Shown: positions 53,690 through 64,000, numbered from the stretch's first letter. The stretch: 64,000 nt of DNA from Shuttleworthella satelles DSM 14600 (GCF_000160115.1 NZ_GG665866.1:434001-498000); one strand, 5' to 3'. The notes: generated by a model from the letters alone, not told the origin. Numbers and translations are program-made.

Positions 53690-54676
53690 TTATATAAAAA
53701 TCCGCAGCTTTCCCGGCAGACAGGTGATTCTGATCTTTCGATGCATGCCAAGATCCTCCCCGTCTGAGTGAACCGGCAGGGCTTCTTCCATATGAATCTG
53801 CAGACTCTTCGTCTCTATCTGATGCACGCCGGGCAGGATTTTGTGCATTCGAAAGAGAAAGCCGGGCAGCATGATCAGGGCGAGCAGGCGGGGCACAGAA
53901 TCCGCCAGACAGATACCGAACTTCCCGTCGAAGGCATTTGCTCCGGGATACATGGGGACGCCTCCTCCTTCAGCCGCCTGATTCATAGCAGCCACGAAGA
54001 TCATGTTCTCAACTTCAAGACAGCTGCGGCCTTTTTCTTTCCGATAGAAAACCCTCCCCCGGTAGAGGGGCATGGAGAGAATGGTCTGCAGGGTCTTGGT
54101 AAGATAGGACAGCCGCCCCAAATGAAGCTTATTCAAGATCCCCTTCATATACATGTGGTCTACTCCCCTGCAGACAGCGGCATCAAAGCCCATGCCGCAG
54201 GAAATGGCGAAGAGACGGCTGTTCCCGTCGTCCAGCTCCACCCGCCCCAGATCCATCCTGCGAACCCGGCTCTCAGACTCTGCTGCCCTTTCTCTGTCGT
54301 GACAATCGGTCAGAATGTCCTCCAGCCTCGCCAGCGGATCCTTATTGGTAATTCCAAGTCCCCGCCCCAGGTCATTGCCGCTGCCCAGAGGAATCATTGC
54401 CAGATTCACCTTATCGAAGTCATGCATACCATTGATCACCTCGTTAAAGGTGCCGTCTCCCCCGACCGCGACAATGGTCGATCGCAGGCCACAGCGATCA
54501 AAATCAGCGGCCGCCTGGTCTGAAAGCTGATCCGCCAGCTGCACGGCATGGCCCGCGAACCGGGTCATATGGATTTGGGCAGAGACCTCTCTCTCGTTCA
54601 GCCGATGACTGATTTTCTCCCAGGCCTTCATGCTCTGCCCGCTTCTGGAATGTATGTTGGCAATGAAGTAAAACAT
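53690..54676 (-). CDS. Diacylglycerol kinase-family lipid kinase
   Basis: About 328 residues. Catalytic motif VGGDGTFNEVINGM and substrate loop IPLGSGNDLGRGLG, as in DgkB/YegS-type kinases. The frame is open to 54949, but ATG 54676 gives the usual start (MFYFIANIHSRSG) and lies one base after the helicase stop (TAATATG), meaning translational coupling. The lipid acceptor is not predictable. Confidence 0.9.
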   Translation of the reverse strand: MFYFIANIHSRSGQSMKAWEKISHRLNEREVSAQIHMTRFAGHAVQLADQLSDQAAADFDRCGLRSTIVAVGGDGTFNEVINGMHDFDKVNLAMIPLGSGNDLGRGLGITNKDPLARLEDILTDCHDRERAAESESRVRRMDLGRVELDDGNSRLFAISCGMGFDAAVCRGVDHMYMKGILNKLHLGRLSYLTKTLQTILSMPLYRGRVFYRKEKGRSCLEVENMIFVAAMNQAAEGGGVPMYPGANAFDGKFGICLADSVPRLLALIMLPGFLFRMHKILPGVHQIETKSLQIHMEEALPVHSDGEDLGMHRKIRITCLPGKLRIFI

Positions 54677-54677
54677 A

Positions 54678-56111
54678 TTAGCGTCCTCTCCCCTGCCCGT
54701 AATAAGAGCCGGAATATCCTCCTCTTCCTCTGGACTCGTCGCTGATATTCTCCCTCTCAGACCGCCCGTTATTGATATTGGGCATGGGGCGGGGCCCCTG
54801 GTCCCTGCGCCTTCTTCCGCGGCCGCTCCCGGAAGCGCCGCCCGCCTTTTGCCTGCGGTCTGCGTGTCCCTGGCGGTTCCTGCTGCCGGTCTTGTGACCG
54901 CTCTTTCCGGCATTTTTCTGGCCTCCTGACCGATATCCGCTCCGACCATGTCTTGTGCGCCCTCCCTTTCCCTTTCTGGCCTTTCTCTCCAGAGGAAGGG
55001 ACCATTGCGTCTGAAGCTCCGGAATGGGCTTCTCTAAAAGCTCCTCTACCTCACGCAGGGCGTCCAGCTCCGCCTCACAACAGAGGGTAATGGCGATACC
55101 GCTCTCCCCCGCGCGACCGGTACGACCGATGCGGTGGATGTAGGCGCCGGCCTCCTCCGGCACATCATAGTTGAAGACATGGGACAGCTTGGGGATATCC
55201 AGGCCTCTTGCAGCCACGTCCGTAGCCACCATAACCCTGACCTTGCCGGACTTAAAGCGATTCAGGGCATCCTGCCTCTGCCCCTGGGTCTTATCCCCGT
55301 GAATCGCCACAGACTCGATTCCCCGACGCTTTAATTCCCTGGACAGCTTATCGGCCCCGTGCTTGGTTCTGGTAAAGACAATCGCGCTCTCCACCGCCTC
55401 GTCTGTCAGCAGGGAGGCAATGATCTCCCTCTTGTCCTCTCGGCTGCTGAAAATGAGCTTCTGCTCGACCGTATCGGCCGCCTCATTCTCCGGAGTCACC
55501 TGAACCTGGACCGGATCCTTCAGCATCCGATCCGCCAGCTGGCGAACCTCCTTCTCCATGGTGGCCGAGAACATAAGCGTCTGCCGCTTAGAGGGCGTAC
55601 TCTCAACAATGCGGCTGACATCCGGGAGAAATCCCATATCCAGCATCCGGTCCGCCTCATCCAAGACCAGGATTTCCACAGAGCTCAGGTCCACCAGGTC
55701 CTGGCCCATGAAGTCCAGCAGCCGTCCCGGTGTGGCGACCAGGATATCCGCCCCCCTGCGCAGAGCTCCGATCTGAGGTCCCCTCTTTGCTCCCCCGTAG
55801 AGACAAACCGTCCTCAGATGCAGATATCTCCCGTATTTTTTAAAATTATCAAAGATCTGAATGGCCAATTCACGCGTGGGGGTAAGCACCAGGGCTCTGA
55901 CCCTGGGTCTCTTTAAAAGCGTGAGCTTGTGTAAAACAGGCAGGGCGAAGGCCGCCGTTTTCCCGGTGCCGGTCTGCGCGCAGCCGATCATATCCCGTCC
56001 CTCTAAGATGACAGGGATGGACTCTTCCTGTACAGGCGTCGGCTCCTCATAGCCCGCCTTTCGAATCGCGCTGAGCAGGTCTTTTTTTAGTCCAAATTCA
56101 CTGAATTTCAA
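54678..56111 (-). CDS. DEAD-box RNA helicase with Gly/Arg-rich tail
   Basis: About 477 residues. Motif Q near FSEFGL, motif I AQTGTGKTAAF, Ia PTREL, II VLDEADRML, III FSATM, V ATDVAARGLD, VI HRIGRTGRAG. The last 120 residues are rich in Arg, Gly, Lys and Ser (RGRRRRDQ, SRGRGGYSGSYYGQGRGR), an RNA-binding tail of the CshA/DeaD type. The start is TTG at 56111 (KFSEFGL), with GAGGAG 5 bases upstream. The region between its predicted promoter and start holds a terminator-like hairpin. Confidence 0.94.
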   Translation of the reverse strand: MKFSEFGLKKDLLSAIRKAGYEEPTPVQEESIPVILEGRDMIGCAQTGTGKTAAFALPVLHKLTLLKRPRVRALVLTPTRELAIQIFDNFKKYGRYLHLRTVCLYGGAKRGPQIGALRRGADILVATPGRLLDFMGQDLVDLSSVEILVLDEADRMLDMGFLPDVSRIVESTPSKRQTLMFSATMEKEVRQLADRMLKDPVQVQVTPENEAADTVEQKLIFSSREDKREIIASLLTDEAVESAIVFTRTKHGADKLSRELKRRGIESVAIHGDKTQGQRQDALNRFKSGKVRVMVATDVAARGLDIPKLSHVFNYDVPEEAGAYIHRIGRTGRAGESGIAITLCCEAELDALREVEELLEKPIPELQTQWSLPLERKARKGKGGRTRHGRSGYRSGGQKNAGKSGHKTGSRNRQGHADRRQKAGGASGSGRGRRRRDQGPRPMPNINNGRSERENISDESRGRGGYSGSYYGQGRGR

Positions 56112-56199
56112 GTTTACTCCTCTTCTGAACCCCTGATCGGGCTCTTGATCTCTTTGAGAATCCCGAGAAGAACCCTTCCAAAGAAGTCGTTTCGAATCC

Positions 56200-56238
56200 C
56201 AAAAAAGACACTGACCGGGGCCTCCCGAATCAGTGTCT
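56200..56238 (-). terminator. Intrinsic terminator upstream of the helicase gene (end of the aga operon or attenuator)
   Basis: Perfect arms AGACACTGA/TCAGTGTCT (56206-56214, 56230-56238) followed on the minus strand by TTTTTT. It is 175 bases after the alpha-galactosidase stop and 90 bases before the helicase start, and downstream of a good promoter at 56290-56318. Confidence 0.9.
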
Positions 56239-56289
56239 GCACAAAAATTCCGCCGACTTGTTTCTTGCTCTCGAGAATATACTTGCATA

Positions 56290-56318
56290 ATCATAGTGTT
56301 TTTTTCTCGAATGTGCAA
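56290..56318 (-). promoter_or_regulatory. Predicted promoter of the helicase-lipid kinase pair
   Basis: -35 TTGCAC (56313-56318), 17-base spacer, -10 TATGAT (56290-56295). Gives a leader of about 170 bases that includes the 56200-56238 terminator. Confidence 0.65.
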
Positions 56319-56412
56319 GATTCTGCCATCTCAGACGCGATCCGCCATTTCGCCATCCGAAATCTCCCCGGACATATCGGTCTGCGTGCCAGGTATACCG
56401 GTCCCGGCCCTC

Positions 56413-58857
56413 TTACGAATAAAATCCCTGTGAATCAACTTCCTCCATAAAATAGAGTCTGCAGGCAAAATCGGGCAGATAGCGAACCCGCTCATCAAAT
56501 CCGGTCCCCACGAAGTTCTGCCCGCATGCCAGCCCGGCCATCAGGGCATCCCCGTAAGCTGTGAGATCCTCTGTCTCCCCCTTAAGCTGAACGAATCCGG
56601 CGATCACATTGTGGAGAAGCCCCCCCTCTCTCACATGTACGGGGGTCTGCTGATTGATCAAAGATCCCATAGCCCTCACATCCACCTTCTGGGGCCGGTT
56701 GAAAAAATGATATCTTCGCGCGGGATCCAGCCCCCTCGGATAGAAGAAGGAGAGATCTTCTCCCGCCCGGTTCACGGTTCTGCTGTAAAAACCGACCGCC
56801 CGACTTCTGTCGGCAGAGACGATCGTCCAGTCCGTCTCATTATCTCCTCTTCCCCGGTAGAACTGTCCTGACTGGAGAATATGACGGTACTTCTTGTAGA
56901 GGCTGATCTGTGATCGGATCTTCTCCTTCTCTTCCCTGGGCAGATCCCTCAAATTGAGCTCGTAGCCCAGATTCCCGAAGGCTGCCACGGCAAAGCGGGT
57001 ATCCAGAGACGTTCTCCGCAGGGTCTGATGATTCGGGCTGGCGGAGACATGCGATCCGAAGCAGATCTGGGGATAGCCGTAAGAGTATCCCCTCTGTATG
57101 TCGATTCGGGCCACCGGATCCGTATCATCAGAGCCCCAGATCTGCGGGAAATAAGAGAGGATCCCCAGGTCGAAGCGATTGCCCCCGGCGGCGCAGCCCT
57201 CAAAGAGAATTTCCGGGAAGCTCTCTGTCAGCTCCTTCATCATGCGATAGAGACCGAGAACATAGCGGTGGCCTGTCTCCTGCTGCCGCGCGAAGGGCAA
57301 GGCCGGAGAATAGACATCTGAGAAGATCCGGTTCATGTCCCACTTGACGTAGTTGATTTCAGCGGAAGAAAAAAGCTCCTTCAACCGACGGATCATTTCA
57401 TCCACGACCTGCGGATTGGCCAGATCAAGGATTCTCTGATTCCGTCCCTCCGCCTGACTCTCTCTCTTCCAGGGCAATTCCATGGTCCAGTCAGGATGCT
57501 GTCGATAGAAGTCGGAGTCTGTATTGACCATCTCCGGCTCCACCCAGATCCCGAAATTAAGGCCCAGACCATGGATCTGGTCTGCCAGAGATTTCAGACC
57601 TCCCGGCAGCTTCTTTGGATCAGGCGTCCAGTCTCCCAGGGATCGATGATCATCTGTCCGCTCTCCAAACCAGCCGTCGTCCATGACCAGAAGCTCTATC
57701 CCCAGACGGGCCGCCTCCCTGCCGAGGCTGAGCAGTTTTTTTTCTGAGATATCAAAGTAGTTAGACTCCCAGCTGTTGAGGAGGATGGGCCTGTCCCTCT
57801 TAGCCCAGACTCCCCTGAGGATATGCTCCCTCACAAAGCTGTGCATATTGGCGCTGATCCCGTTGAATCCGCGATCGCTATAGGTCAGAACCCCCTCCGG
57901 ACTCTCGAAGGAATCGCCGGGGGAGAGCTGCCAGGAGAAGTCTTCGGGACTAATACCTGCCAGCACACGCACAAGCCCGGCTGCCGTCCGCTCAACAGCA
58001 GCATAGTGGTTCCCGGAGTAGATCAGATTAAAGGCATAGGCCTCCCCTCGATCCTCCCCGCAATCCGGGCTTAAGAGCATAAAGAAGGGATTGCAGCGGC
58101 TGGAGGAGGTCCCGGCACGGCTGGTCATGGACCATTTCCCCACGGTCAGGGGCTGACGCTTCTGATTCATCTCGTGGGCCCAGCCGCCGTCAAAGGCGAT
58201 GACATCCAGAGCGCGCGGTCTCAGATCCAGCCCGTAACTCATCAGACGGCGGATCACAAGCTCCTCCCCGCTCTCATTGGTCAGAAGAGCCCTTCGGGTG
58301 ATGACATCCTTTTCAGGAAAAAGAGCATAGTAGAGATCCAGCCGATTTTTGCTCAACCGGTCCCGCAGAGTGATCCTGACCTCCTCAACCCCGTCCGACT
58401 CCTTACTCTTTCGGCTTTCATCTCCGGCATCATCTAATGAATCCCCGGGCGCGTCCGACTGCCCGGCTTTTGCCCAGGCGGACGGCATGGTCGCCATCGC
58501 GCTCTTTCCCTTTTGAAGCTCGCAGGACTCATAGACCCAGTCCGCGCTGCGGTTTCCCCTGGCGTCCACGAGCTCAATCATGGGTTCCCTGAGGTCCCCC
58601 TTTCCGGGCGACGTCCACTCCAGACAAGTACTCTCCAGAGAGAAATCCGGCCGCGTATTGTCATATAATATCGTATTCCCCGGCGCGAATGCCCGCTTGG
58701 GAATCAGGGAGTCAAGATCAGACTCCCTTTCCACCCGCAGTTTCCCGCCATAATAGAGATGCTCTAAATGTCCCGTCACAAGCACCCGAAAGATATAGGC
58801 GCTTTGCCTGCCCTCTAAGATAAAAACGGGCCGATCTCTTCCAATGATACGAATCAT
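56413..58857 (-). CDS. Alpha-galactosidase, GH36 family
   Basis: Removes alpha-1,6-galactose from melibiose, raffinose and the like. 814 residues without signal peptide, hence cytosolic. The nucleophile lies in NYVKWDMNR and the acid/base region is CAAGGNRFDLGILSYFPQIW followed by GSDDTD; LLVMDDGWFGERTDDH is also typical. A hydrophilic insert at about 125-165 (Ser/Asp/Glu-rich) is unusual. ATG overlaps the symporter stop (ATGA). Confidence 0.95.
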   Translation of the reverse strand: MIRIIGRDRPVFILEGRQSAYIFRVLVTGHLEHLYYGGKLRVERESDLDSLIPKRAFAPGNTILYDNTRPDFSLESTCLEWTSPGKGDLREPMIELVDARGNRSADWVYESCELQKGKSAMATMPSAWAKAGQSDAPGDSLDDAGDESRKSKESDGVEEVRITLRDRLSKNRLDLYYALFPEKDVITRRALLTNESGEELVIRRLMSYGLDLRPRALDVIAFDGGWAHEMNQKRQPLTVGKWSMTSRAGTSSSRCNPFFMLLSPDCGEDRGEAYAFNLIYSGNHYAAVERTAAGLVRVLAGISPEDFSWQLSPGDSFESPEGVLTYSDRGFNGISANMHSFVREHILRGVWAKRDRPILLNSWESNYFDISEKKLLSLGREAARLGIELLVMDDGWFGERTDDHRSLGDWTPDPKKLPGGLKSLADQIHGLGLNFGIWVEPEMVNTDSDFYRQHPDWTMELPWKRESQAEGRNQRILDLANPQVVDEMIRRLKELFSSAEINYVKWDMNRIFSDVYSPALPFARQQETGHRYVLGLYRMMKELTESFPEILFEGCAAGGNRFDLGILSYFPQIWGSDDTDPVARIDIQRGYSYGYPQICFGSHVSASPNHQTLRRTSLDTRFAVAAFGNLGYELNLRDLPREEKEKIRSQISLYKKYRHILQSGQFYRGRGDNETDWTIVSADRSRAVGFYSRTVNRAGEDLSFFYPRGLDPARRYHFFNRPQKVDVRAMGSLINQQTPVHVREGGLLHNVIAGFVQLKGETEDLTAYGDALMAGLACGQNFVGTGFDERVRYLPDFACRLYFMEEVDSQGFYS

Positions 58858-60290
58858 GACCGCTCCTTCTCTCTCAGCTGCTCACTGATCTCCTCCAACC
58901 TGGCATCCGTCAGGACATACTTTTTGCGGAACCAGAAAAAGGCAATCATCAGACCCGCGATGGGAATCAGGGTCATCACCATGCGAAGTCCCATCTTGGA
59001 TGCCATGGAGACACCGGCCGAGAAATCCACACTCTGATCTGCGCTTCTGGTGGCTGTGGAGCTTAGGCGGAAGGCCTGGAGGGCCAGGGACGCGACCAAA
59101 GCGGCCAGGCCCGAGGCCAGCTTCACAACAAAGGTCTGCATGGAAAAGATGACTGACTCATCTCTTCTTCCCCTGATCAGCTGACCGTAATCGACGGTAT
59201 TGGCCAGAAAAATCGTAGTCAGGACATTGTTCATGCCGCTCGCCGCCATGATCAGGACGCCCGGGATCAGCAGAAGGACCAGATGATTCTGCCCCAGGCT
59301 CGCGATCGCAAAGAGAATGATGTATCCCAGCATGGACATGGCAAGACTGATGTAGAAGATTCGGATGGAACTGACAAAGCGGCGAAGCAGAGGATAGAGA
59401 ACCATCATAGCCAGAATCTGCGCCGCGCCCGCGACCATATTAAAGCCCGTGTAGGACTGGTACCAGGCAGTTCCTCCAAAATCATACTTGAAGAAATAAA
59501 GGACAAGATTCGATGTGATATAGAGGGCGGAGTTCACCAGGACAATGGTGACAACCACACACATGGCCTGATCATTGGAGATCAAAGCCCGAAACATCTG
59601 TCCCAGGCTTGCGGTTTCCATATCAACAGTAGACTTCTCTTTGATCGCCAGGCAGGTAATGGCAATAAAGATCACAAATAAAACCGCGACAATCAGGGCG
59701 AAGATCTGAAAACCGACTCGCTCCACCTCCTGCGAACCGGATCCATGTCCGAAAGCGTCTCCCAGGGCATGCACTAAAATCATGGTGAAAATCGTAACCA
59801 GAGCGCTCCCCACGCCGGAGCAGGACCGGGCCAGAGTTGTCAGCCCCTCCCTCTCTTTGCCCCCCTCGGTGAAGGCTGGGATCATAGACCAGAAGGGGAT
59901 ATCCATCATCGTATAGGTCACGCCCCAGAGAACATAGCTGATGGCCGCATAGGCAATCATCCCTCCTGTATCCAGGCTTGGCGGCGCGGAAAACATCAGA
60001 TATAAGACGATGGCATTGGTCAGTGTTCCAAAAAACATCCAGGGCCGAAACCTGCCCCAGCGGGTTCTGGTTTTCGCCACAATGACCCCCATGATCGGAT
60101 CATTGAAGGCGTCGAAGACACGGGCCGCCAGCAGGATAATCCCCATAGCAGCCGCGGAAACTCCCATAATATCCTGAAAATAGTAGAGAATATAAGAGGC
60201 AGACAGCATATAGACCATATCCTTGCCGACCGCGCCCAGACCATAAGAGGCCTTCTCCCGTCCAGTCAGTTGCTTTTCGTTTTCCATCAT
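58854..60290 (-). CDS. GPH-family (MelB-like) sugar:cation symporter
   Basis: 478 residues, 12 expected membrane spans. N-terminus EKASYGLGAVGKDMVYMLSA and the conserved FDAFNDPIMGVIVAKTRTRWGRFRPW-region (loop 2-3; key parts NDPIMG and RWGRFRPW) mark the glycoside-pentoside-hexuronide family. Presumably imports an alpha-galactoside for the GH36 enzyme. Overlaps both neighbours by 4 bases. Confidence 0.94.
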   Translation of the reverse strand: MMENEKQLTGREKASYGLGAVGKDMVYMLSASYILYYFQDIMGVSAAAMGIILLAARVFDAFNDPIMGVIVAKTRTRWGRFRPWMFFGTLTNAIVLYLMFSAPPSLDTGGMIAYAAISYVLWGVTYTMMDIPFWSMIPAFTEGGKEREGLTTLARSCSGVGSALVTIFTMILVHALGDAFGHGSGSQEVERVGFQIFALIVAVLFVIFIAITCLAIKEKSTVDMETASLGQMFRALISNDQAMCVVVTIVLVNSALYITSNLVLYFFKYDFGGTAWYQSYTGFNMVAGAAQILAMMVLYPLLRRFVSSIRIFYISLAMSMLGYIILFAIASLGQNHLVLLLIPGVLIMAASGMNNVLTTIFLANTVDYGQLIRGRRDESVIFSMQTFVVKLASGLAALVASLALQAFRLSSTATRSADQSVDFSAGVSMASKMGLRMVMTLIPIAGLMIAFFWFRKKYVLTDARLEEISEQLREKERS

Positions 60291-61771
60291 GATTTCTCCC
60301 TCAAATGCATGGCCAGTTCAACCGCCCGATAAGCTCCGTTGTACAGACCGCTGTCCTTATTCCTCTGTATATTCTCGCACATGCGGATCAATTCCCGGTT
60401 CTCTCCCAAAAAGAGGTCAGTCATTTGCAAAATATGGGGAATATCCCGGCACTCCAGGCTCCCGTCCCCCATCTCCGCGGAGTGAATCGCCCCCCACATC
60501 TCATGCTTTCCCACCCGGCGGATAAAAAGCTTGGGCACCGGATAGAAGGCCAGCTCGGACGGCTTGGTCACCAGCAGGTCACAGGACCGCATGAGCAGAT
60601 TAGTGATATAGACCGCCTCGAAAATATTTCTGTGATAGAAGGCGTGAACCCCCTCGACGGAGTCGGTCAGGGCTCCATCCGCAAACGCCGCGGCCTCCTC
60701 AAAATTCAAAAAGCGCTCTGTCGCGCACCTGCCCAATTCCGGAATGTCCGCGAGCAGCTCCTCCCAGACATTGCGATAATCTCCGACATTCACATAGAGG
60801 GCGGCCCGCTTATTTCGAACGGCCGGAAGCAGATGGCGGATAATAGCGCTAAAAAGATCTCTCTGAGCTCCCGCTCCGCCGATAGTCAGAAGAAAGCGCA
60901 TGGGCTCCCCTCTCTTCTTTCTCTCAATCCTCGCCTGGCAGTCCGTCTGCACATTGGCGACAATTTCATGATCCACATAGTGTCCCGTATAAATGAGCTG
61001 GTCCGGCGGAATGGACCTTAAGACCTTCTTCTTGGCGAAGCCATAAAGGGTGCGGTAGCCCTGATAGGCGTAGTTGCACTGAACCGTGTGAAGGCTCCCC
61101 TCCGCCAGGTGCAGAGCCATGGGCCAGTTGTCAGGAATGGCATTGACCACATACCGCATTCCCCCGTGCAGGGCAGCCTGAGCCGGCCACACATGGGTAG
61201 CGAGAAGAGGAATGTCCTTGGGAATCTCCCGAAAGAGGGGGGCCATCAGTTCCGCCTTCTTCTGATCGGAGGCGTTGTAGGTCAGGGCCCGAAAGCCCTC
61301 GTAATTCATGGACTCCCAGACCAGCTTGTTAAAAAGCCTGAAACGGGACAGACGAGAGCCCAGAGAATAGAGGTCATTCTGGGCGCTGATCAGCTTGGTC
61401 GCTGTCGTCTGCGGATAAGAATTCAAGTCCATCCAGTATGGGGTGTAGCCAAGCGCATGAGCCGCGGACGCCATCGCCATGGAGATGCGGTAATGGCCGA
61501 ATCCCATGCGGATATTCCCCACGATCAATCCCTTCCTGTGATCGAAGTCCGCGGGCCTGATCTGTTCTCCGGACCGAAGGGCCTGTCCCAGTCGAATATC
61601 CTTTACGCCCAGCCGGTCCCCAATGACCGGATTATCCTCAATTTCCACCGGATAGAGCTCTCTGCTGTCATCACCGAACTTTCTCGCATATTTCTCCTTG
61701 GAATGTACAGCCCTCTGATAATCTCTCCTGGAAATGGCATTGCCAAAAATCTCCCTGGATCTCTCTGTCAT
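60287..61771 (-). CDS. Unrecognised GT-B-like protein of the alpha-galactoside operon
   Basis: About 494 residues, no signal peptide or clear membrane span. I do not recognise a named family. The N-terminal half has a Gly-rich loop after a beta strand (GLIVGNIRMGFGHYRISMAM) as in MurG/MGDG-synthase glycosyltransferases. The C-terminal half has RFLLTIGGAGAQRDL and a late LLVTKPSELAFYPVP, in the positions where GT28 enzymes bind the nucleotide sugar. Start ATG 61771 has GGGAGAAGG; a longer frame begins at 61846 and would overlap tetR. Downstream it overlaps the symporter start. A glycosyltransferase role is inference. Confidence 0.75.
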   Translation of the reverse strand: MTERSREIFGNAISRRDYQRAVHSKEKYARKFGDDSRELYPVEIEDNPVIGDRLGVKDIRLGQALRSGEQIRPADFDHRKGLIVGNIRMGFGHYRISMAMASAAHALGYTPYWMDLNSYPQTTATKLISAQNDLYSLGSRLSRFRLFNKLVWESMNYEGFRALTYNASDQKKAELMAPLFREIPKDIPLLATHVWPAQAALHGGMRYVVNAIPDNWPMALHLAEGSLHTVQCNYAYQGYRTLYGFAKKKVLRSIPPDQLIYTGHYVDHEIVANVQTDCQARIERKKRGEPMRFLLTIGGAGAQRDLFSAIIRHLLPAVRNKRAALYVNVGDYRNVWEELLADIPELGRCATERFLNFEEAAAFADGALTDSVEGVHAFYHRNIFEAVYITNLLMRSCDLLVTKPSELAFYPVPKLFIRRVGKHEMWGAIHSAEMGDGSLECRDIPHILQMTDLFLGENRELIRMCENIQRNKDSGLYNGAYRAVELAMHLREKS

Positions 61772-61826
61772 ATCCTTCTCCCGCTTCCTTCTACCGACTG
61801 ATTTTCTCAGCTTCTGGCTCTTCTTC

Positions 61827-62393
61827 TCAGTTCCTAATCCCATCAATGATCAGGTTTGCGACCTCTTCAAGAGCCTCATTATAGTCCAGCTCCATCTCAG
61901 CCGCCCTGTCCCCATAGAGCAGGCGCTCGATTGTGGACTCATAAATCACCTTGATTACACTGGGATTCACGGGCCGAAGCTGCCTCTCTTCTATCCCCCT
62001 TTGGATCAGCTCAAAGGTGGGCTCCCAGTTGCTCTCTATGCGGCTTTCCATGCGCTGATATGGCCTCGGATACTTTTCCCGGAAGCGAAAGAGTTCCGCA
62101 AAGTTAATCCCCCTGGCCTCAACCGGCAGCACACAGAGAATTCCTCTGAGCTTGTCCACAACAGACAGATCCCTGTCATCTAAAATAATCTTCTGATCCT
62201 TGGCGACCTGGTCAAAGACATTATCGACCAGGTCCGTCAGTATGGCCTCCTTATCCGAGAAGACCTTATAAATGGTCTTCTTGCTCATAGACAGGCACCT
62301 GGCCAGATCATCCATGGTAAATCTGGCTCCTTTTTCCTTGAGTACTTTCAAACTTCCTGTCAGAATTTTACTTCTTACCGCTTTCCTATCCAT
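61827..62393 (-). CDS. TetR/AcrR family transcriptional regulator
   Basis: About 188 residues. N-terminal helix-turn-helix ARFTMDDLARCLSMSKKTIYKVFSDKEAIL (key part MSKKTIYKVFSDKEA); the ligand-binding part has no clear relatives. ATG at 62393 with GAGGG 4 bases upstream; an earlier ATG at 62447 lies at or above the promoter. First gene of the operon with the GT-B protein, symporter and GH36, so probably its local regulator. A TetR-type regulator is unusual for an alpha-galactoside operon. Confidence 0.93.
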   Translation of the reverse strand: MDRKAVRSKILTGSLKVLKEKGARFTMDDLARCLSMSKKTIYKVFSDKEAILTDLVDNVFDQVAKDQKIILDDRDLSVVDKLRGILCVLPVEARGINFAELFRFREKYPRPYQRMESRIESNWEPTFELIQRGIEERQLRPVNPSVIKVIYESTIERLLYGDRAAEMELDYNEALEEVANLIIDGIRN

Positions 62394-62437
62394 TTTTCCC
62401 TCATCCAGAAACATTATCTCAAATATTCGTTTCCTAC

Positions 62438-62443
62438 ATTGTA
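62438..62443 (-). promoter_or_regulatory. Extended -10 promoter of the tetR operon
   Basis: TGGTACAAT, an extended -10 (TGn plus TACAAT at 62438-62443); no good -35. About 45 bases upstream of the tetR ATG. Confidence 0.5.
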
Positions 62444-62479
62444 CCATCCGAAGATCTGACTGCCCTCTGCATTTTTTGA

Positions 62480-62515
62480 CAAAAAAAATGACAGCCGATT
62501 GTGAAATCTGCTGTC
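62480..62515 (-). terminator. Terminator between the dlt genes and tetR
   Basis: Minus-strand arms GACAGC/GCTGTC (62490-62515), continued inside by GATT/AATC with one mismatch, followed by ATTTTTTTT. Would end the dlt transcript, about 455 bases after the dltX stop. The gap 62516-62970 is AT-rich; the only candidate in it is a 43-codon plus-strand frame. Confidence 0.85.
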
Positions 62516-62575
62516 GAAAAGGGGGGTATTCAAAATTGGTTGCGGAAGAAATCTCTATGAAAAGGGGGTATTGTC

Positions 62576-62707
62576 ATGAAAGAAAGGGGAACTGCCACAA
62601 CCGGGGATATTGCTTCTTTCTGTCCCGTCTTGTTCTCCGGAACAATAGTATCTTACATCTTGGCTTATGCATTGTCAACAGTTTTTATTCGCATTTTTTA
62701 TGCATAA
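62576..62707 (+). CDS. Possible 43-residue membrane peptide
   Basis: ATG at 62576 with AAGGGGG 7 bases upstream. The peptide begins MKERGTATTGDIASFC and carries one likely transmembrane helix (VSYILAYALSTVFIRIFYA) to its C-terminus. The upstream AAAAGGGGG-TATT is a near repeat of a sequence 42 bases earlier. No known family; it could be a remnant or chance. Confidence 0.3.
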   Translation: MKERGTATTGDIASFCPVLFSGTIVSYILAYALSTVFIRIFYA

Positions 62708-62970
62708 CATCTAAAAATCTTCTCTTTCTATGTTTGCTTTGCCTCCCCATTTCTCTTCCGCGCAAAATAATATACAATTTCTCCCTGTCTAAATTGTCTA
62801 ATATATCCAGTTCCCTCTGATTTTCATCCTTTTTCTGAGGGATAGGCCCATAACAGAACGCAGGCTCTGTGAGGATTAGTAGTCATATCCTTCTCCCATT
62901 CTCTCTCTTTTGCTAAAAATAGTACACAGTTTTTGGTCTTCCAAATTGTATAGCATTTCCGGCTCGTGGG

Positions 62971-63120
62971 TCAGAATGCCGCGTATGTGAATCCAGGCTT
63001 GGCCAGACCGCTGCTGAGAATCAACAAAAGATACAGCACAATCATCAGGGCCAGATAGCTTCCTGTGTACTTCCAGAATTTACGGTCCGTCAATATCTTC
63101 TTAATTTTTATAAAAATCAT
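62971..63120 (-). CDS. dltX: DltX-like teichoic acid D-alanylation microprotein
   Basis: 49 residues: short basic N-terminus (MIFIKIKKILTDRKFWKY), one membrane helix (LALMIVLYLLLILSSG) and the C-terminal FTYAAF, which fits the aromatic F-x-Y-x-x-F end of DltX proteins. GAGG 6 bases before the ATG. It overlaps the last 20 bases of dltD. DltX is a small membrane partner of the Dlt machinery that adds D-alanine to teichoic acids. In many Firmicutes it precedes dltA; here it is last. Confidence 0.75.
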   Translation of the reverse strand: MIFIKIKKILTDRKFWKYTGSYLALMIVLYLLLILSSGLAKPGFTYAAF

Positions 63121-64000
63121 AGATTGCCTCATTGATATATACCCATCCAAGAGACCAGGGGTGATAGGCATCTGCCAGGAAATAGGGCGTGTACTCATGC
63201 TTGCTCAAGTCTACACACCTGACTCCATAAGCAGCTGCGCTCTTTGCAATTGCCTGATAGGCAGATTCCCGGTTGGCTTGCGGCATCCCGGTCGCGTCAT
63301 ACCAATAACCGCTGATGGGCAGAATGATCACCTGCGTTTGAATCCCCAGCTCCTTTGCCACCTGCAGGAAAAGTTCCAAATCCCCCTTCTCCTTGGCCGA
63401 GGTCCACTGTTCACCCTTATGGATCTGAGTTCCCGCCTGATAGCTCTTCTGATACAGGTTCTTCCAGGACTCATTCTTCACATAGAGGGGATTATCCGAT
63501 TGAGATGCGGTTTCACTGATTGCATCCGCCTTCATCTTCTCCCAATCGACACTGCCATCCTCTGACTGATAGGAATGAACGGTCGCCTCTGTCGGCTCAA
63601 TATTTTTGGCCACCTTATTCGCATTCTTCAGCTTCAGTACCGCTGCGGCAAAATTCTCCCGGTCTCCCCGGTTCGCTGCCAGCAGATCTGCTGTCAACCG
63701 CTCCGTGGCAGATGCATCCTCCGTGGCATAAGCCCGCTGATAGGCCTTGATCCGGTTTGAGAAAGCGATGTCCGAAGATGCCAGCACCATAACCCGGTTG
63801 ATGATCTTCTGCCTGGTTTCGGCGGAAAGGCGGTCATTCTTCAACATGGCCAGATAGGCCGTGTCGGAAAAATGCTGCTTAAAGGCCGTTGAAGCGACCC
63901 CATCTCCGTAGAACCAGGTTGGAGAAGCCAAAAGCGTGACCTTTTTGGGGGATCTGCTCCCATCAATGGCCGCCAGGCTGATCGCATCCTGCAAAGACTG
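63101..64000 (-). CDS. dltD: D-alanyl-lipoteichoic acid biosynthesis protein DltD (C-terminal part, cut by window edge)
   Basis: At least 299 codons of the extracellular serine-esterase-like domain. Recognisable: KVTLLASPTWFYGDGVAS near the window edge, GDLELFLQVAKELGIQTQVI, and the C-terminal YFLADAYHPWSLGWVYINEA with the catalytic Asp/His pair (DAYHP). The frame is open to base 64000, so the N-terminal anchor and Ser motif lie outside. Transfers D-alanine to teichoic acid with DltB/DltX. Confidence 0.92.
   Translation of the reverse strand, partial: QSLQDAISLAAIDGSRSPKKVTLLASPTWFYGDGVASTAFKQHFSDTAYLAMLKNDRLSAETRQKIINRVMVLASSDIAFSNRIKAYQRAYATEDASATERLTADLLAANRGDRENFAAAVLKLKNANKVAKNIEPTEATVHSYQSEDGSVDWEKMKADAISETASQSDNPLYVKNESWKNLYQKSYQAGTQIHKGEQWTSAKEKGDLELFLQVAKELGIQTQVIILPISGYWYDATGMPQANRESAYQAIAKSAAAYGVRCVDLSKHEYTPYFLADAYHPWSLGWVYINEAIYDFYKN

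Follow-up and report, generated by a model that had tools for sequence, protein, structure and literature searches.

A predicted galactoside-utilisation operon of Shuttleworthella satelles with a putative TetR operator and a GT28-like GT-B protein of the DUF6937/DUF6938 family

Four genes lie side by side on the minus strand of the window, the whole 64-kb stretch of Shuttleworthella satelles DSM 14600 DNA that was analysed. In the direction of transcription they encode a TetR-family regulator of 188 aa (61827..62393), assigned by its PF00440 match and its likeness to the TetR of the conserved operon; a GT-B protein of 494 aa (60287..61771), composed of DUF6937 and DUF6938 and predicted from Pfam, AlphaFold2, VIA-align and a GT28 profile to be a UDP-sugar-dependent glycosyltransferase; a GPH:cation symporter of MelB type with 478 aa (58854..60290; TIGR00792, MelB 4m64); and a GH36 alpha-galactosidase of 814 aa (56413..58857; PF02065, PF16875, PF16874). 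Position and families are those proposed in an earlier note on this DNA, and Pfam and TIGR00792 confirm the families. That note also described all four genes as overlapping stop to start, which holds for the GT-B/GPH junction (60287-60290) and the GPH/GH36 junction (58854-58857), with 4 nt each, and fails for the first pair, where 55 nt separate the TetR stop (61827) from the GT-B start codon (61771). The overlap seen there in raw open reading frames is due to an upstream TTG at 61846; the GT-B gene starts at a conserved ATG at 61771, after GGAGAAGGAT and with a GGAG ribosome site, giving 494 aa. The TetR gene likewise starts at the ATG at 62393 (188 aa) and not at the far end of its reading frame. 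No Rfam match to an RNA element was found in 55000-64000.

On its sequence scores, the transporter is to be classed as a relative of MelB and not as MelB itself: it reaches 351.6 bits against TIGR00792 (cut-off 231) and 356.7 bits against the MelB equivalog PRK10429, whose cut-off is 456, and it matches MelB 4m64 at E 1e-63. The window protein keeps all five residues of the galactosyl-binding site of MelB (Asp19, Tyr120, Asp124, Trp128 and Arg149; PMC8329300) as well as the cation residues Asp55 and Asp59, and 71 other GPH proteins keep both sets. The galactosyl-site residues are thus invariant in 72 of the 78 GPH proteins of related loci, and the sugar residues are lost in five of six divergent GPH transporters. 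MelB recognises the galactosyl part of its substrates and tolerates varied aglycones (PMC8329300), a tolerance that suits operons with either hydrolase, GH36 or GH2. The GH36 protein shows the three-domain architecture of its family with a melibiase TIM barrel (PF02065 at 475 bits, plus PF16875 and PF16874), its closest solved chains are alpha-galactosidases (E down to 1e-179), and it has no obvious N-terminal signal. The GH2 enzymes of related operons are closest to the solved beta-galactosidase 5euv; a family search of the window genome found no close GH2 counterpart, the best match reaching 74 bits and 30%.

The arrangement resembles melAB-type melibiose systems in joining a GPH symporter that carries the galactosyl-binding residues of MelB to an alpha-galactosidase, for galactoside import and hydrolysis. 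It differs from them in having GH36 in place of MelA, a GH4 enzyme, and TetR in place of MelR, an AraC-type regulator, as well as an optional GH2 and an extra GT-B protein.

The regulator scores 31.6 bits against PF00440 (cut-off 24) and shares 46% identity with its counterpart in the Roseburia porci operon. At 62408..62433, 14 bp upstream of its start codon, lies a 26-bp inverted repeat, GAAAC-N16-GTTTC, to which no strand is assigned; it is the only copy in the window. One exact site in the window is not significant by itself, and the evidence lies in conservation across loci: 90 related loci, 1.36 Mb in total, contain 90 exact sites where about 1.3 would be expected. In 54 of 86 loci the palindrome precedes the first gene of the operon, a place where none of 19 permuted half-sites with the same composition occurs. 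Its spacer length peaks sharply at 16, two copies frequently stand 59 bp from each other (22 pairs), and it is also found upstream where TetR is not adjacent and the GH2 or GT-B gene comes first. A palindromic operator near the regulator's own gene, as looked for in the TetR family, is therefore present as a predicted site, and the recurrence of the repeat marks it almost certainly as the putative TetR operator, a new finding at this operon. A wider TetR regulon was considered and rejected, with four sites in the window genome against three for a reversed control pattern; sites are thus not enriched outside the operon, which is probably the regulator's main target. The conserved palindrome thus supports the TetR control that had been proposed; such control, called unusual in the earlier note, has a precedent in Roseburia, the arabinan locus Ros-8 (PMC5320581). 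The Roseburia and Eubacterium gpPULs (PMC5320581) are likewise Lachnospiraceae clusters of glycosidase, transporter and regulator, including GPH transporters and a TetR-type regulator, and the passages covered do not mention a DUF6937/6938 protein.

Comparison with related genomes drew on the best 80 of 426 contig stretches in which a genome scan detected coding sequence for relatives, a selection that favours close relatives, together with others from whole-genome searches. Near the GT-B gene in these 90 loci were found GPH (78 loci), GH36 (69), TetR (67) and GH2 (52), and in all 62 loci with enough flank the gene is accompanied by a galactosidase, a GPH transporter, a TetR or several of these. 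The two commonest orders are TetR-GH2-GT-GPH-GH36 (25 of 62) and TetR-GT-GPH-GH36 (16 of 62); in six of the 62 the order is GH2-GT-GPH, without GH36. The earlier reading of alpha-galactoside import and hydrolysis needs widening for the operon family, which is not strictly alpha-specific: in many genomes GH36 is accompanied by a GH2 beta-galactosidase or gives way to it. The GT-B and GPH genes are neighbours in 76 loci, making the GT-B gene the most constant partner beside the importer, and the presence of GH2 changes at least eight times on the GT-B tree, as its starred branches force; the GT-B gene has thus been kept while the hydrolase was swapped. In another phylum, a plasmid of Treponema saccharophilum carries GH36-GT-GPH in a different order, with an unrelated TetR and galT near by, its GT-B and GPH proteins being 53% and 63% identical to those of the window. 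This survey, which could have found the GT-B gene apart from GH36 and GPH genes everywhere else, instead found them together in many genomes, a gene association beyond chance that bears out the proposed functional coupling. By their record titles, many hosts of the bacteria with related loci are herbivores, and the genome collections are rich in rumen samples.

Galactoside import and hydrolysis under TetR control is well supported by these data, and a self-regulated galactoside-utilisation operon is a very probable role. A MelB-type cation symporter would import the galactoside, a cytosolic GH36 enzyme (elsewhere GH2, or both) would release galactose from it, and TetR would bind the predicted 26-bp site before its own gene and control the operon.

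The remaining member had been described as belonging to no nameable family, a statement now superseded: PF22052 (DUF6937) and PF22053 (DUF6938), both domains of unknown function, cover the whole GT-B protein in this order with E 9e-118 (392 bits) and E 3e-109 (365 bits), the cut-offs being 27 bits. Both Pfam regions lie on the minus strand: that of DUF6937 (61049..61750) comprises an N-terminal extension and the N-terminal Rossmann domain with its GNIRMGFGHYRIS loop, and that of DUF6938 (60308..61012), also traced by global hhalign to the GT28 profile, the C-terminal Rossmann domain with the IGGAGAQ and TKPSELAFYPVP loops. The pair occurs in all 67 aligned homologues. Both glycine-loop motifs quoted in the earlier note match the sequence letter for letter. 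Their core does not vary among the 67 proteins, nor does any part of the active-site region, including His118 of the GNIRMGFGHYRIS/GNIRMGFGH loop and Glu431 of DUF6938 (invariant residues are numbered from the upstream TTG, for 519 residues; numbering from the ATG is lower by 25). The family is tight: within the phylum only 5 of 398 genomes carry it, all scoring near 400 bits. A phage search gave no match and a plasmid search a single one, so membership in a phage or mobile family was rejected, and Foldseek against viral structures returned generic glycosyltransferases only. A search of freely accessible literature found no paper on DUF6937/6938.

Sequence comparison with solved structures found no homologue of the GT-B protein, and its fold was assessed on an AlphaFold2 model built from the alignment of the 67 natural homologues (pLDDT 86, pTM 0.88). 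Two Rossmann-like domains face a cleft in the model, as in the GT-B superfamily, and the top Foldseek matches are GT-B enzymes, headed by trehalose-6-phosphate synthases. The top VIA-align match is MGD1, an MGDG synthase from plants (Z 21.9, with an rmsd of 3.9 over 284 residues), followed by MurG (Z 19.4), with SenB, BshA and the UDP-GlcNAc 2-epimerases (WecB-type) not far behind at Z of about 17-18. Profile comparison by hhalign, whose E-values are those of single comparisons, gave a weak match to MGDG-type proteins alone (prob 22, E 1e-3), in which the GNIRMGFGH loop and His118 pair with the G-loop and invariant His of those proteins, and nothing with MurG alone. The clear score came from a mixed MurG and MGDG profile in global mode only, with 329 columns across both domains (prob 88, E 4e-7); in it IGGAGA falls on the GG-loop of GT28, Glu431 on the Glu that follows the GG/KP loop, and His118 on a GT28 position as well. 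Control profiles of GH36, GH2, GPH and TetR stayed at prob 1.6 or below. None of the 67 members matches PF06925 (MGDG_synth) or PF04101 (Glyco_tran_28_C), even at E 1. The catalytic His and nucleotide-site Glu of GT28 are recognisable by motif, with an alignment that is weak outside the motifs, and the sequence profiles tie the protein only weakly to GT28 enzymes. By fold and motif the GT-B protein resembles a GT28 enzyme, but the sequence criterion ordinarily applied does not place it in GT28. The MurG/MGDG-type GT-B fold that had been suggested is upheld by the model, Foldseek, VIA-align and the global GT28 profile, in a structure prediction that could have returned another fold.

The likeness to MGD1 (GT28, Arabidopsis; 4x1t, 4wyi) extends from the GT-B fold to a glycine-rich loop ending in an invariant His, an IGG loop and an aromatic stretch after the first Rossmann strands, at about 16% identity over the aligned residues. 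The G-loop histidine of MGD1, H155, is its catalytic base (PMC7419546). Unlike MGD1, the GT-B protein has its own N-terminal extension of about 80 residues, an insertion at about 372-410, a short TKPSELAFYPVP loop and a place in a catabolic operon, and it lacks a Pfam match to MGDG_synth or GT28_C. MurG (GT28, 1nlm) shares the GT-B fold, the G-loops and, by profile alignment, the Glu of the nucleotide region, at 14% identity; a different gene of the window genome encodes a MurG-like GT28 protein.

The fold of the GT-B protein, its invariant active-site region and its constant place beside the importer favour a UDP-sugar transferase over other roles, and on the model the protein is probably a nucleotide-sugar transferase. 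Such an enzyme would be active and inverting, would resemble GT28 glycosyltransferases and would take a UDP-hexose as donor; His118 would probably act as its catalytic base, and Glu431 would lie close to the nucleotide. A role as sensor or pseudo-enzyme, in which the protein would bind a galactoside or nucleotide sugar and modulate the transporter or TetR, would suit the constant proximity to the transporter gene, yet it is very unlikely: an active-site region wholly invariant in 67 proteins is more than a binding role usually needs, and the Treponema operon pairs its 53%-identical GT-B protein with an unrelated TetR. The catabolic setting raises another option, a phosphorylase or reversed transferase that splits the imported galactoside, or what the galactosidase leaves of it, conserving the energy of the bond in a UDP-sugar or a sugar 1-phosphate. 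Being the importer's most constant neighbour fits such an enzyme, and the GT-B fold includes phosphorylases and sucrose-synthase-like enzymes besides the trehalose-6-phosphate synthases that lead the Foldseek list. This role is nevertheless quite unlikely, given that the best structural matches are inverting, lipid-acceptor transferases, that a single enzyme would have to serve GH36-only (alpha-galactoside) and GH2-only (beta-galactoside) operons alike, and that no phosphorylase family appears among the Pfam matches of the protein and its homologues.

For a UDP-sugar transferase, UDP-galactose made from the freed galactose is the most likely donor; it would be the natural one for an operon that supplies galactose, and a GalT gene is in some cases linked, lying within about 8 kb in 11 loci. 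Family searches detected GalK and no GalT in the window genome, and this doubtful route from galactose to UDP-galactose counts against the preferred reading. The GT-B protein as a stand-in for GalT was rejected as a general rule, since 9 of 12 relatives with the DUF6937/6938 family have GalT.

As to the acceptor, the N-terminal helix spanning residues 38-60 is cationic, its net charge having a median of +5 among 67 homologues, and its hydrophobic moment is among the highest in the protein. Residues 160-190, among the least certain parts of the AlphaFold2 model, hold the invariant aromatics F172, W177, Y182 and F185 at the place matching the lipid-capturing loop of MGD1 (PMC7419546). The cationic helix and the aromatic stretch are hints that would suit membrane contact. 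Across related loci no lipid gene is a constant neighbour of the operon. A lipid-kinase-like gene near the operon, found near six other loci too, was discarded as support for a lipid role; five of the six are Pseudobutyrivibrio loci with the same gene order and are thus not independent. A soluble acceptor (sugar, polyol or phosphate), with a galactoside product that would serve in storage, as an osmoprotectant or in a polymer of the cell surface, would agree with the scores of the soluble relatives SenB, BshA and the WecB-type epimerases, but MGD1 is ahead of these by about 2-4 Z units, the conserved cationic helix fits membrane contact better, and no polymer or cell-surface genes recur near the operon across related loci, which leaves this option unlikely. 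A lipid acceptor, to which the closest folds and the membrane hints point, can be proposed tentatively.

The best overall reading, falling a little short of an even chance, is a galactoside-uptake operon with a dedicated UDP-sugar transferase that probably galactosylates a membrane lipid. Against it stands the setting, since a catabolic operon is not where one would expect a biosynthetic transferase. Most speculatively, imported galactose might pass partly into glycolipid, or the operon might process galactolipid head groups. The digalactosyl head group of plant chloroplast galactolipids contains one alpha- and one beta-galactosyl bond, which would match GH36 and GH2 and makes a galactolipid link attractive; no literature directly tying galactolipid breakdown to such operons was found. 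The fuller picture, a mobile, TetR-switched gut operon that takes in galactosylated head groups or sugars and in which a new GT-B family distant from GT28 galactosylates the cell's own lipid, is conceivable but rather improbable.

The DUF6937/DUF6938 family spans hundreds of contigs from gut and rumen Firmicutes as well as a Treponema plasmid. It now has a predicted fold, constant genetic partners, a probable catalytic His and a probable regulator whose DNA site is specified, so that experiments can address its function directly. Should the GT-B protein prove to be catabolic, it would represent a new way of breaking down galactosides; should it prove to galactosylate lipids, the feeding of common herbivore-gut bacteria on galactosides would be coupled to the composition of their membranes.

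A 26-bp palindrome, GAAAC-N16-GTTTC, is conserved 5' of the operon both in the window (62408-62433) and in related loci, where it frequently occurs as a pair of copies 59 bp apart; it is probably the operator of the TetR regulator. Immediately 5' of this putative operator, an inverted repeat (GACAGC-14 nt-GCTGTC) is followed by eight T residues on the operon strand (62481-62515 in all), forming a possible terminator or attenuator, with a loop that exceeds the scanner's length limit. Directly 5' of the operon's promoter region lies a DltD gene on the same strand (63101-64000), truncated by the window edge. On the other flank, two genes 3' of GH36, a lipid-kinase-like gene of the DAGK/YegS type is encoded (53690-54949), and its homologues occur near the operon in six other loci, chiefly from Pseudobutyrivibrio.

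Regarding galactose use, the S. satelles genome carries a galactokinase domain (C5:1440969-1441121), and family-model searches with TIGR01239 and PF01087 returned no match to GalT in this genome or in those of the relatives G007 and G009.

In the tree of GT-B homologues, two contigs filed as Muribaculaceae and Bacillus (L039 and L046) group with a Roseburia sp. contig (L066) within a Lachnospiraceae clade, and they probably represent misbinned or mislabelled genomes. Plasmid pTS2 of Treponema saccharophilum (NZ_AP025290.1, 96771-102364) harbours a rearranged operon in which GH36, GPH, and the GT-B protein are encoded together with a TetR that is unrelated, a sign that the operon has moved between phyla.

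In some genomes, a methyl-accepting chemotaxis protein gene lies within the operon or immediately 3' of it, as if the galactoside perhaps doubled as a chemoattractant. Two cases are confirmed by Pfam (L040:4039-5532 and L016:13314-14831), and three further loci (L047, L057, and L062) have genes of comparable size at this position.
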